The notes: generated by a model from the letters alone, not told the origin. DNA of 64,000 nt from Theionarchaea archaeon (GCA_018992685.1 JACVGT010000021.1:62001-126000), one strand, 5' to 3'; shown: positions 18,068-22,344, counted from the first letter of the stretch. Numbers and translations are program-made.

Positions 18068-19663
18068 TTATGTCAAATGTAACGTTCTAACGCTGTTGTT
18101 TCTCCGAGAGGTTTTTCTCCACCAGATTCCCATGATACGTTTCGATCTCCACAGACTATGTAGTTCTGAAATGATGAGTACCCGGTCAAAAATATCCACA
18201 ACATTAAACGAATTGCCAAAAAGACTCCTCACATACTGACCAGAAACGGCATTCGCATTGGAAATTACCGTATTGTCAACTCTGGATGCATAGGGATAGG
18301 AAGAATGGCCTGTAAGCACCAAATCTACCTGGAGGTCGCACAGTGTTTTCAAGACGTCTCCTGCATCTTCCAGTAGCCCCTTCTCTCTGATATGGGGCAA
18401 AGGAATGACGTTGTGGTGCAGGAACACGATGCTCATGTCCTGTTCCTGCTCTCTGATACCCCTTTCCAGTTTGGCCAGCTCGAATCGCCCTACAGCCCCC
18501 ACATCTGAATCATACTGAGAAGAGTTCACTGCATGCACATGAACCAGTGGGTTCTCAAAGTCCTGGTCCCATCCGCCTGCTAATCGGGGAAAGAGTTCAT
18601 ATCCAATATAGTTGATGTCTCGGGGCCCGGGCGTATATACTACGGGAGAACTGATCTGGCTCAAATACGTTTCTGCCAGATCGTAGTGGAGAGGAATTCC
18701 CGCCTCCACAATATCGCCGCAGTGGACCACAAGATCTGGTGAGAGAGCATTAATCTTTCTCACAGCATTTTCAAACTTTTTCCTCTCAAACATTTTTCGA
18801 TCCGAAAAAAAGGTACCTGCAATGTGAATTATTCGGGCCAGCTTCTTACCTTCTGAAATGAAGATCTCACTTGAGACACGGGGGTACTCATGTGGCTGAT
18901 ATTCCTGGAAGTGTTGTGGCCGAGACGGAGCGGTGTCACCAGCACTCCCATAGCACTGGGATCGTTCATTCCCTACTCTCCTGATGGTGATGGTGATCTT
19001 CTGAGGTGAAATGTCCACCTGGTTATAACTGCATGCATCTCCCGCTCTCACCTTCCTGCAGGACATGCAGCCCGCATTGCTGATGATCATGTCATCCACA
19101 TCGACCACATTCGGGTAGTGACGGTGGCCGGATAAAACGAGGTTTACATTATACTTTTGGAGTAAATCCATCAAATCTCCTGCATTGAACAGGACGTTTC
19201 TCTCTGTACCTGCCTTTGGAACAGGGACCAGGTGGTGATGGACTGCCACTATTTTTATCTTCTTTGAACTGTACTTCATCAGCTGAGTTTTCAACCAATT
19301 GAACTTGCTGCTTCCCACTCTGCCCTCATTGCGATCGGGAATGGAACTGTCCACGTAAAGGAGTACATAATCATCACCCTCTTTCACACCATTGAATTCC
19401 CCGTAGTACTCATTGAAAAGTTCGTATCCAACGTTACGTGAATCATGGTTTCCCGGGATAATCACAAGTGGCTTTTTTATCGTGTCGATGAAAGCCTTGG
19501 AATGTTCATACGCTTCCCTCAGTCCAGAGTCAGTCACGTCGCCTGTGTGAACCACCAGATCAAAAGGAAGGCGGTTAACCTCTTCCACGATCTGCGAAAA
19601 GGGTTCCTTCTTGAATTCTCCTCCAGGAGTGATGTGAGAATCCGAGATATGAGCAATTCTCAT
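18068..19663 (-). CDS. Tandem calcineurin-like metallophosphoesterase, second domain degenerate
   Basis: A 531-residue protein with two related domains. Domain 1 (about 1-225) has the complete metal-site set: DSH, GDVTDSG, GNHD, HHHLVP and GHRH. Domain 2 (about 270-515) aligns with it through the conserved CGDIVEAG, FLHHNVIPLP and VISNA segments, but the ligands have changed: DSH became AGT, GNHD became GPRD and GHRH became GHSS. Domain 2 therefore probably binds no metal pair and may be structural or regulatory. It is the last gene of the cDPG operon, 19 nt after the CBS gene, which suggests a phosphoester or phosphoanhydride linked to that pathway. The substrate is not known. Confidence 0.85.
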   Translation of the reverse strand: MRIAHISDSHITPGGEFKKEPFSQIVEEVNRLPFDLVVHTGDVTDSGLREAYEHSKAFIDTIKKPLVIIPGNHDSRNVGYELFNEYYGEFNGVKEGDDYVLLYVDSSIPDRNEGRVGSSKFNWLKTQLMKYSSKKIKIVAVHHHLVPVPKAGTERNVLFNAGDLMDLLQKYNVNLVLSGHRHYPNVVDVDDMIISNAGCMSCRKVRAGDACSYNQVDISPQKITITIRRVGNERSQCYGSAGDTAPSRPQHFQEYQPHEYPRVSSEIFISEGKKLARIIHIAGTFFSDRKMFERKKFENAVRKINALSPDLVVHCGDIVEAGIPLHYDLAETYLSQISSPVVYTPGPRDINYIGYELFPRLAGGWDQDFENPLVHVHAVNSSQYDSDVGAVGRFELAKLERGIREQEQDMSIVFLHHNVIPLPHIREKGLLEDAGDVLKTLCDLQVDLVLTGHSSYPYASRVDNTVISNANAVSGQYVRSLFGNSFNVVDIFDRVLIISELHSLWRSKRIMGIWWRKTSRRNNSVRTLHLT

Positions 19664-19682
19664 GTTTATCCTGCATTCACGC

Positions 19683-20099
19683 CTATTCGCTGGAGATCAC
19701 TGTCTCCAAGAGCTGTCTTTCCGGATCTACAAGATCTTTTAAGGAAAATAGCCCTGTGATCTGTCCTCGTTCTGTGATGAGAACATGACGTATCTGGTGT
19801 TGTTGCATTAATTCAAGCACTTTAGATACGGGAGAGTCAATGTCAGTTGTGATGAGGTCCCTGGTCATGATGCTGGAAATGGGTTTAGCATAGGACAGTC
19901 CTTTAGCCACCACCCGCTCGATAACGTCCCCCTGGGTTAGGAATCCCACGACTCCTTCATTACACACTACCAGAGAACCTACCTTGAATTCCACCATTTT
20001 TCGACAGGCTTCCTGAATAGTTTCATGTTCAGATATGCCCACCAGTTTTCGTGTGGTGTACTGTCTGATGGGAACTGAAAGGTTATTAATATCATTCAT
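19683..20099 (-). CDS. CBS domain pair protein
   Basis: A 138-residue protein made of two CBS motifs and little else: LVGISEHETIQEACRKMVEFKVGSLVV, GFLTQGDVIERVV, IMTRDLITTDIDSPVSKVLELM, and HVLITERGQITGLFSLKDLV. Such pairs bind adenine nucleotides and sense energy charge. The ATG at 20099 overlaps the end of the 2-phosphoglycerate kinase gene (ATGAATGA), so coupling is likely; an alternative in-frame start at 20129 would overlap more. In this operon it could report ATP/AMP status to the phosphoglycerate enzymes (inference). Confidence 0.85.
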   Translation of the reverse strand: MNDINNLSVPIRQYTTRKLVGISEHETIQEACRKMVEFKVGSLVVCNEGVVGFLTQGDVIERVVAKGLSYAKPISSIMTRDLITTDIDSPVSKVLELMQQHQIRHVLITERGQITGLFSLKDLVDPERQLLETVISSE

Positions 20100-20973
20100 C
20101 CGTTGCAGCCTCCTTTTGAAGTTGATCATACATTCTATTTAAGATTTGAGTGACTGTCTCCTCTAACGCTATATTTTCCAGAACCGGAACCCTCTCTCTA
20201 TTAGCCCTCCCTACGATGTGGTCTTGTATCTGCCTGATCTTGTCAATATTCTCAAGGTAGTGTTCTGGAGGTCTTCTGCTGTCCTTTGCTCGAGCATAGA
20301 ACCTGTTCACGTGTTCCTCTCTGTCACTGAGGGTAAGAACGAAATGAAATATCGTCCGATCCTGACGTTCAACATACCCAGGGACAAGATGAATTCCTTC
20401 CATTACAAGACTGAACCCCTCGGTCAGTGCTCTGTTGATTATGGCATTAATCCCCACAGCAACATGAGATACCTGAAGCTCAAAAGCATAGATCACTGCA
20501 CTCAAAAATGAAGAAGGAGCCTGAATTTCTTTCCATGCGGAAAATGAGGACGTGTGAAGAGTGGGGAGTAGATCCCGTGAGACCATTTTCCGCATGACCT
20601 CACGCACGACGTCTGTCCCAATAATGGAATGAATCCCCAGTCGATAGCTGATTTCAAAGGCTACCGTAGATTTCCCGATGCCTGTGGCACCTCCCAGAAG
20701 AACAACAAGTGACTGTTTTTTCTTTCTCAGTGAATGCCACATCTGGTAGAACGAGGCGATACGTGGGTACCCGTCATCTATCAGGATGTGGTAAGTCATG
20801 TCAGTGAGATCTTGTTCAGAGATCCGGGAGATTCCTGAGGTCACCATTCTCTGCCCAATTTCCTCTGCCATTTTGTAGGCCCTGTTCACATCCAGCCCTG
20901 CTTTCAACAAAGATCCGGCCAGGACACCCTTTGAAAATGGAGTTACATACTTCTTGCCTACTACTTCTATCGT
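20092..20973 (-). CDS. 2-phosphoglycerate kinase, ACG start proposed
   Basis: Enzyme that makes 2,3-bisphosphoglycerate, the precursor of cyclic 2,3-diphosphoglycerate. The N-terminal part is an ATP-cone-like domain (KKYVTPFSKGVLAGSLLKAGLD), followed by the kinase P-loop GGATGIGKST at about residue 96 and TDVVREVMRKM, EGIHLVPGY and RRPPEHYLENID. The first conventional start is TTG at 20910, which would cut the cone in half. In frame upstream the coding sequence runs to an ACG at 20973-20971, five bases after GGAGGGG within the cpgS end. I therefore place the start there; a sequencing variant of ATG is the alternative. About 293 residues in this form, near the family's usual 300. Confidence 0.85.
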   Translation of the reverse strand, partial: TIEVVGKKYVTPFSKGVLAGSLLKAGLDVNRAYKMAEEIGQRMVTSGISRISEQDLTDMTYHILIDDGYPRIASFYQMWHSLRKKKQSLVVLLGGATGIGKSTVAFEISYRLGIHSIIGTDVVREVMRKMVSRDLLPTLHTSSFSAWKEIQAPSSFLSAVIYAFELQVSHVAVGINAIINRALTEGFSLVMEGIHLVPGYVERQDRTIFHFVLTLSDREEHVNRFYARAKDSRRPPEHYLENIDKIRQIQDHIVGRANRERVPVLENIALEETVTQILNRMYDQLQKEAATDE

Positions 20974-22313
20974 GTGATCCCCTCCTCAGCCTTTCTTGCC
21001 AGCTGGACAATGGCATCCTCCAAGCTGGTGACAGTTCCTCCTCGAAGGCGGGGAACGTTATCCATGAACACGACATTGCGGTCGAATTTCAAAGCCTCTC
21101 GCGTGGCCACATCAATGGCAGAGGCCTTTATTTCAGTAAGGAGAGTATCTGCCTGGGGAAGGAATTGGTTCAGGTCTTTCTTTAATCTCGGTCGATTAGA
21201 AAGATGGGGAGAAGCCTTTACTATTTCACAACTGAAGGTTTGTTCGAGGTAGGGTACCAGAGTAGATTCCAGGACTGAGGGGGGCGCCGTGGTAGCCAGG
21301 AATACTTTTCTACCTGAAATGTCTTTCAGGGGTACCGGCCTGAACACGCAGTGTGCCTGGGGGAGTTCGGGCTTGATTTCACTAATTGCTTTTTGCATCT
21401 CTGCCACTTTTTGCGGCGAAGCCATGGGTTCTTCACACATCATGAGGATGAGCAGATCGGCCATGAGAATTCTAAAGGGACCGAAGTACTCGTTGATGAA
21501 TTCCAATGGTTGATGCGCTCCTGCAATCACGATGCAGCAATCTGTATTCACAGGAGGGAAGGTGGTGCCTGACCCCTCTAGTATTACGAAGGTTGCTTCC
21601 AGTGTATTTGCCAGTTGGGCTCCTTTTTCCATATTAGATGAAAAAGGAACTCCAGCCATTCCACCACCACATCGCCTGCATCCGACTGTTGCTACGCGGG
21701 AAATAAGAGCATTCTCCCAGTGGTCTGACGCAGCGTGCTTTCCCTGATTTGCCTGTTTCAGTAGATACGAAGGAGTGAGTTCGATGGTGTCACCTCTGAT
21801 GATTTCGGGCTGAGCTGGACCTCCCCTTCCCATCGTCACAATCCAGGGAATATAACCTGAAGCCTTGAGTGTTCGGGCTATGTATCCCGAGACAGCAGTT
21901 TTTCCCACCCTCTTTGTTGTCCCCACCACGGAAAAACTGGGACGTTTCAGAATCTTTGGGTATCTTGGAGGTGTAAACAGGAAGTCTGATCCCTTGTATT
22001 GGACTCCTTCTTTCATGAGCGCACAGGCGAGATGTAACCTGCTGACGTAGTCCATAATCGGCTCGTCTGAAAGATCCACAACTTGCTCAATCTCATGAGC
22101 CGAGCAAGCTGTCACAATAACGTCGTGAATATCTCTTGACTGGTTTCCTCTGTAGATAGGAATATCAAGATGTGCTGTCAATTCCTCAATGCTACCGACT
22201 TTTTCCGTTCCTCCCAAGAAAACAGCAGCTCTCACGTCACCTTCAATAGTTGCCAACGCATCTTTCGTTACTGGTGGATAATGTTCGCCGTCTATGAGGG
22301 CAAGAATATTCAT
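20967..22313 (-). CDS. Cyclic 2,3-diphosphoglycerate synthetase
   Basis: A 448-residue ATP-dependent enzyme that closes 2,3-bisphosphoglycerate into the cyclic pyrophosphate cDPG, a thermoprotective solute and phosphate store known from some methanogens. The N-terminus reads MNILALIDGEHYPPV; a P-loop-like VVGTTKRVGKTAVSGYI lies near residue 130, then MGRGGPAQPEI, the Cys/Gly-rich GCRRCGGGMAG and ILEGSGTTFPP. The annotated ATG at 22313 is preceded in frame by TTG at 22316. It heads a four-gene operon whose second gene overlaps it by 7 nt. Confidence 0.9.
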   Translation of the reverse strand: MNILALIDGEHYPPVTKDALATIEGDVRAAVFLGGTEKVGSIEELTAHLDIPIYRGNQSRDIHDVIVTACSAHEIEQVVDLSDEPIMDYVSRLHLACALMKEGVQYKGSDFLFTPPRYPKILKRPSFSVVGTTKRVGKTAVSGYIARTLKASGYIPWIVTMGRGGPAQPEIIRGDTIELTPSYLLKQANQGKHAASDHWENALISRVATVGCRRCGGGMAGVPFSSNMEKGAQLANTLEATFVILEGSGTTFPPVNTDCCIVIAGAHQPLEFINEYFGPFRILMADLLILMMCEEPMASPQKVAEMQKAISEIKPELPQAHCVFRPVPLKDISGRKVFLATTAPPSVLESTLVPYLEQTFSCEIVKASPHLSNRPRLKKDLNQFLPQADTLLTEIKASAIDVATREALKFDRNVVFMDNVPRLRGGTVTSLEDAIVQLARKAEEGITR

Positions 22314-22334
22314 CAAATGAACTTGTTTAGTATG

Positions 22335-22344
22335 TATTTAAGGG
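22335..22344 (-). promoter_or_regulatory. TATA box of the cDPG operon
   Basis: CCTTAAATAC on the minus strand, 22-31 nt before the ATG at 22313, at the left edge of the predicted origin. Confidence 0.5.

Follow-up and report, generated by a model that had tools for sequence, protein, structure and literature searches.

A phosphoesterase gene beside the cyclic 2,3-diphosphoglycerate genes of archaea and Actinomycetota is a good candidate for the breakdown step

Introduction

The locus described here raises the question of whether a metallophosphoesterase (PDE), encoded next to the genes for synthesis of cyclic 2,3-diphosphoglycerate (cDPG), could catalyse the breakdown of this metabolite. Earlier work has described 2-phosphoglycerate kinase (2PGK), cDPG synthetase (cDPGS) and a cDPG hydrolase activity that is membrane-bound (PMC1224877, PMC10690619), hydrolysis having been measured since the 1990s. 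The hydrolase of M. thermautotrophicus is membrane-bound and is inhibited by K+ and phosphate (PMC1224877). No gene for a cDPG hydrolase is named in the literature found, including the review PMC1224877. cDPG and its synthetase have been published as exclusive to hyperthermophilic methanogens. The Thermococcales synthetase is also known to respond to stress (PMC4890121, PMC7511516).

We analysed a window of 64,000 nucleotides (contig C6, 62001-126000) from a 3.03-Mb, 45-contig genome of a Theionarchaea archaeon. Among named relatives the closest is Theionarchaea archaeon SZ_28-30 (L031), whose cDPGS is 82 % identical. A sequence-only reading of the window had proposed that a four-gene unit at 18068-22313 makes, senses and breaks down cDPG.

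Results

The four genes of the unit proved to be real, co-directional on the minus strand and placed as that reading had claimed, including the 19-nt gap, which lies between the CBS and PDE genes. The features are given below, the four genes in order of transcription.

20967-22313, minus strand: cDPGS (phmmer to PDB 8oru/8ork, E 1.6e-138; nine published ligand residues kept)
20092-20973, minus strand: 2PGK with N-terminal ATP-cone (NCBIfam PRK04220 above cut-off; PF03477)
19683-20099, minus strand: two-CBS-domain protein of 138 aa (two Pfam CBS matches; 2yzi, E 3.4e-38)
18068-19663, minus strand: PDE of 531 aa (two Pfam Metallophos matches; fold matches GpdQ and Rv0805)
18971-19663, minus strand: PDE domain 1, with intact metal site and GRER-type motif, GTER in the window (ligands in 75/75 Thermococci-type PDEs)
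18104-18850, minus strand: PDE domain 2, a degenerate copy (alignment of 75 Thermococci-type PDEs)
22334-22341, minus strand: TATA-like box TTAAATAC, approximately 25 nt upstream of the cDPGS start (read from the sequence)

The TATA-like box is a possible single promoter for the operon. An orc1/cdc6 gene lies upstream of cDPGS, and an FAD-oxidase gene follows 274 nt downstream of the operon. The former is divergent, and in L031 the latter is set apart from the operon by intervening genes; both therefore appear to lie outside it.

The assignments of cDPGS and 2PGK rest on strong homology. No Pfam or NCBIfam model matches the cDPGS of the window, and its homology to the solved M. fervidus enzyme extends over the full length. 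Walker A is kept, as are all nine of the reported ligand residues checked (E45, K46, K145, R146, T150, D208, E305, T353 and E404). Most Thermococcales cDPGS lack two residues at the CEEP motif, in the column of M. fervidus E305, and the nucleotide-contacting glutamate is replaced by D in 59 of 68, hinting at an altered use of nucleotide in these enzymes. The 2PGK passes the curated cut-off of PRK04220 (367.1 compared to 343 bits) and carries an ATP-cone that had escaped the sequence-only reading. The operon resembles the pathway of Methanothermus fervidus and Methanothermobacter both in the ligand residues of cDPGS and in the 2PGK family with its ATP-cone. Neither ATG, GTG nor TTG occurs at the homologous 2PGK start, where the window reads ACG ATA GAA and L031 reads ATG ATA GAC, so either the start is the non-canonical ACG/ATA or there is an error in the metagenome-assembled genome (MAG). 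The ACG ATA in the window (20968-20976) comes after a GAGGAGGGG stretch. The first listed start, TTG at 20910, would truncate the ATP-cone.

The start of the CBS gene that matches L031 is at 20099, giving an 8-nt overlap with 2PGK. Both CBS domains of the protein are above the Pfam cut-off (83.1 compared to 24 bits, two stretches), and it is an ortholog, matching over the whole length, of PH0107 from Pyrococcus horikoshii, which has been solved as 2yzi. Among 75 orthologs the T/S..D motif is conserved (T55 0.99, D58 1.00, D122 0.96). Such a T..D motif is typical of CBS domains that bind adenosyl ligands. For PH0107 or 2yzi itself neither a functional paper nor ligand data were found in the open-licence literature, subscription papers lying outside its coverage.

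The phosphoesterase had been described as double. It does contain two Metallophos stretches, but the metal site is intact in domain 1 only. All seven ligands of domain 1 (D8, H10, D42, N72, H143, H180 and H182) are present in each of the 75 Thermococci-type PDEs, and they agree with the ligand set of class III two-metal phosphodiesterases (DxH, GD, GNH, H, GHxH). In domain 2 of the window protein four of the seven ligands are replaced; across the group the positions read G/F, D, P/R, H and H/S by positional counts, and the idea of two active sites was rejected on this loss of metal ligands. Domain 1 shares the signature HHHLxPxP..GRERN with the actinobacterial and methanogen members, reading GTERN in the window. 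In fold and in the domain-1 ligand set the PDE is like the class III phosphodiesterases GpdQ (2dxl/3d03) and Rv0805 (2hy1/3ib7), as seen from an AlphaFold model of moderate quality (mean pLDDT 70.6, 8 sequences), from which no role was assigned to domain 2. It shares about 21-24 % identity with them and differs in having its own signature and, in Thermococci, the fused degenerate second domain. The NCBIfam cut-offs for the cyclic-nucleotide phosphodiesterase equivalogs SpdA and PRK11148 were not reached (93.7 compared to 225 and 66.7 compared to 400 bits).

Whole-genome searches were made in 115 genomes of the phylum of the window, and gene order was read at fetched loci. cDPGS was found in 91 genomes, PDE in 98 and 2PGK in 96, and at the search thresholds all three were missing from the same 12 genomes (G005-G016). 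The genes stay together in Thermococci, in several layouts. In the Thermococcus-like group g9 the order cDPGS>2PGK> <PDE<CBS was seen at 47/47 loci, while the co-directional order of the window, cDPGS>2PGK>CBS>PDE, was found in 9/9 genomes of g10 and 2/5 of g11. Four-gene linkage was present in both Theionarchaea genomes. These counts are not independent, since within a phylum the genomes showing linkage are relatives of one another. In two further g11 genomes an apgM-type phosphoglycerate mutase takes the place of 2PGK (L129 8404-9705, L130 8424-9710), and the cDPGS of these two (L014, L016) has diverged unusually far for Thermococcales.

In g8 one genome has the two halves of the cluster separated by approximately 3.5 kb and other genomes have them unlinked, and in g7 and g12 CBS>PDE occurs alone. 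The CBS-PDE pair outlives the cluster, as it stays joined in these three groups where the cluster splits. Four f2 genomes have 2PGK>CBS>PDE and three g6 genomes apgM>2PGK> <CBS PDE>, the apgM-type gene ahead of 2PGK lying at 4936-6174 in L123 and 5581-6816 in L125. No true cDPGS was found in these seven genomes (L119-L125), even by profile search. One member of the Thermococcales, G108, is without cDPGS and 2PGK and has no CBS gene at its PDE locus; its PDE (L128 7016-8532) has a frame change that separates the active from the degenerate domain, domain 1 being intact.

In a wider scan of species genomes, relatives of cDPGS were found at 458 places, of which 80 loci were kept; none was found on viral contigs. 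The methanogen loci among the 80 had no PDE, CBS or 2PGK in the flank, except that cDPGS-2PGK was present at two Methanolliviera loci. In this they are unlike the window operon. A PDE-subfamily member does occur in Methanobacteriales, unlinked to cDPGS; in L206, L207, L211 and L215 it comes just after putative archaeosine tgtA and nascent-chain NAC genes.

The loci of the Aquicultor/Actinomycetota type all had PDE-cDPGS-2PGK (6/6 among the 80). Actinomycetota is the phylum of Aquicultor, and by profile search cDPGS was found in 185 of the 346 genomes sampled from it; homologs such as L247-L284, L094 and L103 keep the ligand residues. At 38 actinobacterial cDPGS loci, fetched so as to spread down the ranking, a same-strand PDE of the same subfamily was directly upstream of cDPGS in 34, 2PGK and then a transaldolase-like gene were downstream in 28, and apgM was in the region in 14. 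Ten loci without an adjacent 2PGK had a 2PGK-like gene elsewhere in the genome, 34-37 % identical to the actinobacterial query. This cluster has three enzyme families in common with the window operon, but it differs in gene order, in its single-domain PDE and in the transaldolase-like gene following 2PGK, and no CBS gene was detected in it. The CBS protein, put forward as a sensory partner, was thus kept with PDE in Thermococci and sister families but was not detected beside cDPGS at the Actinomycetota and Methanobacteriales loci examined, and among the layouts examined the gene is limited to the Thermococci type.

The 344 Halobacteriota genomes included 6 with cDPGS, 7 with 2PGK and 67 with a member of the PDE subfamily. 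PDE was present in every one of the 8 genomes that had cDPGS or 2PGK, compared to 59 of the 336 others (hypergeometric 1.5e-6, the genomes not being independent), and 2PGK>PDE was adjacent in two, G683 and G693. The idea that the PDE marks this pathway exclusively was rejected on account of those 59 genomes.

In a tree of 54 PDE domain-1 sequences, the backbone of which is weak, the Thermococci PDEs lie on one side of a well-supported branch, and the linked actinobacterial and halobacterial PDEs intermix with unlinked ones. A minimum of three linkage changes was obtained. The linkage of PDE to cDPG genes probably arose more than once, because a single clade of linked PDEs is mildly rejected by the AU test (p=0.016). 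A single mobile cassette was likewise considered and is mildly disfavoured by this tree, subject to its weak backbone.

Discussion

The sequence-only reading would have failed if the phosphoesterase and CBS genes were absent from cDPG gene neighbourhoods elsewhere. For the phosphoesterase the opposite was found, its association with cDPG genes being conserved across archaea and bacteria. Because these genes adjoin the same kind of phosphoesterase in both, genome linkage makes the PDE a good candidate for the breakdown step of cDPG.

The best reading of the locus is that the PDE would open cDPG, or dephosphorylate 2,3-diphosphoglycerate (2,3-DPG), under control of the CBS protein. In the proposed cycle, 2PGK would phosphorylate 2-phosphoglycerate to 2,3-DPG, which cDPGS is predicted to cyclise with ATP. 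Domain 1 of the PDE, as an active class III two-metal centre, would open cDPG to 2,3-DPG and possibly also remove phosphate. The probable part of the degenerate domain 2 is to complete a pseudo-dimer or to provide a docking site for the CBS protein. The most likely role of the CBS protein in Thermococci and Theionarchaea is to bind an adenine nucleotide and modulate the PDE, and the ATP-cone of 2PGK may sense ATP on the synthesis side.

That the PDE opens cDPG as part of such a CBS-tuned turnover module is, in our estimate, an evenly balanced proposition. It is favoured by the linkage in g9, g10, part of g11 and both Theionarchaea genomes, by the CBS-PDE pair being kept where the cluster is split, and by the joint absence of cDPGS, 2PGK and PDE in 12 genomes. 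The separate actinobacterial layout, with PDE upstream of cDPGS even in the ten loci having a distant 2PGK, the Halobacteriota co-occurrence and 2PGK>PDE adjacency, and the AU result against one linked clade point in the same direction, as do the intact two-metal site in a GpdQ/Rv0805 fold and the cDPG hydrolase activity known from M. thermautotrophicus (PMC1224877). However, that known hydrolase is membrane-bound (PMC1224877), Methanobacteriales, known for cDPG, have the subfamily member unlinked, and cDPG was undetected in Thermococcales (PMC7511516). Also against it are the seven f2 and g6 genomes having 2PGK, CBS and PDE without cDPGS, the 59 Halobacteriota genomes with the subfamily and neither pathway gene, and G108, which keeps an intact domain 1 with no cDPGS, 2PGK or CBS gene at the locus.

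The same seven genomes make 2,3-DPG a rival substrate, since they retain 2PGK-CBS-PDE without a cDPGS. The PDE would then be a 2,3-DPG phosphatase reversing the 2PGK step, with cDPG consumed either through a different enzyme or through cDPGS running in reverse, and the 2PGK>PDE adjacency in G683 and G693 would fit this. We hold it as a tentative possibility and lean against it: the ten actinobacterial loci keep PDE with cDPGS although 2PGK is elsewhere, and the closest solved relatives are phosphodiesterases. Alternatively, the pathway could be controlled by the PDE and CBS protein as a nucleotide-signalling pair (acting on e.g. cAMP, 2',3'-cNMP or AMP), with pathway metabolites not being substrates of the PDE. 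The best family matches do include cyclic-nucleotide phosphodiesterases, the CBS protein retains nucleotide-type motifs and the PDE subfamily is found without the pathway, but the NCBIfam scores fall well short of the cut-off (94 compared to 225 bits), the PDE stays linked to actinobacterial cDPGS where no CBS was detected, and no cyclase gene was noticed on reading the clusters, without a dedicated search; we regard signalling as quite unlikely. Finally, the PDE and CBS genes could be neighbours by inheritance only, with no functional tie to cDPG. Several clusters are indeed split and the linked genomes are related within each phylum, their counts being non-independent, yet the genes occur in three or more arrangements across two domains of life, adjacency is kept when orientation changes, and absence is shared in 12 genomes, which makes this explanation highly improbable.

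No report was found in the open-licence literature, which does not cover subscription papers, of the PDE/CBS linkage, of a phosphoesterase beside cDPGS or of actinobacterial cDPGS clusters; this silence on the linkage and the actinobacterial clusters is not proof of novelty.

With cDPGS in more than half of the Actinomycetota set, the purpose of cDPG itself comes into question. The case for a thermoprotectant role is weak for the window organism and for most of the genomes bearing the genes. Rather than being confined to hyperthermophilic methanogens, cDPG could be in wide use among Thermococci, Theionarchaea and many Actinomycetota, with a synthetase-phosphodiesterase pair dedicated to its formation and removal, and could be kept low and serve as a phosphate or energy buffer or as a signal instead, although we consider this unlikely. 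The phosphoesterase subfamily that recurs beside cDPG genes in both archaea and bacteria provides a concrete gene candidate for cDPG hydrolysis.
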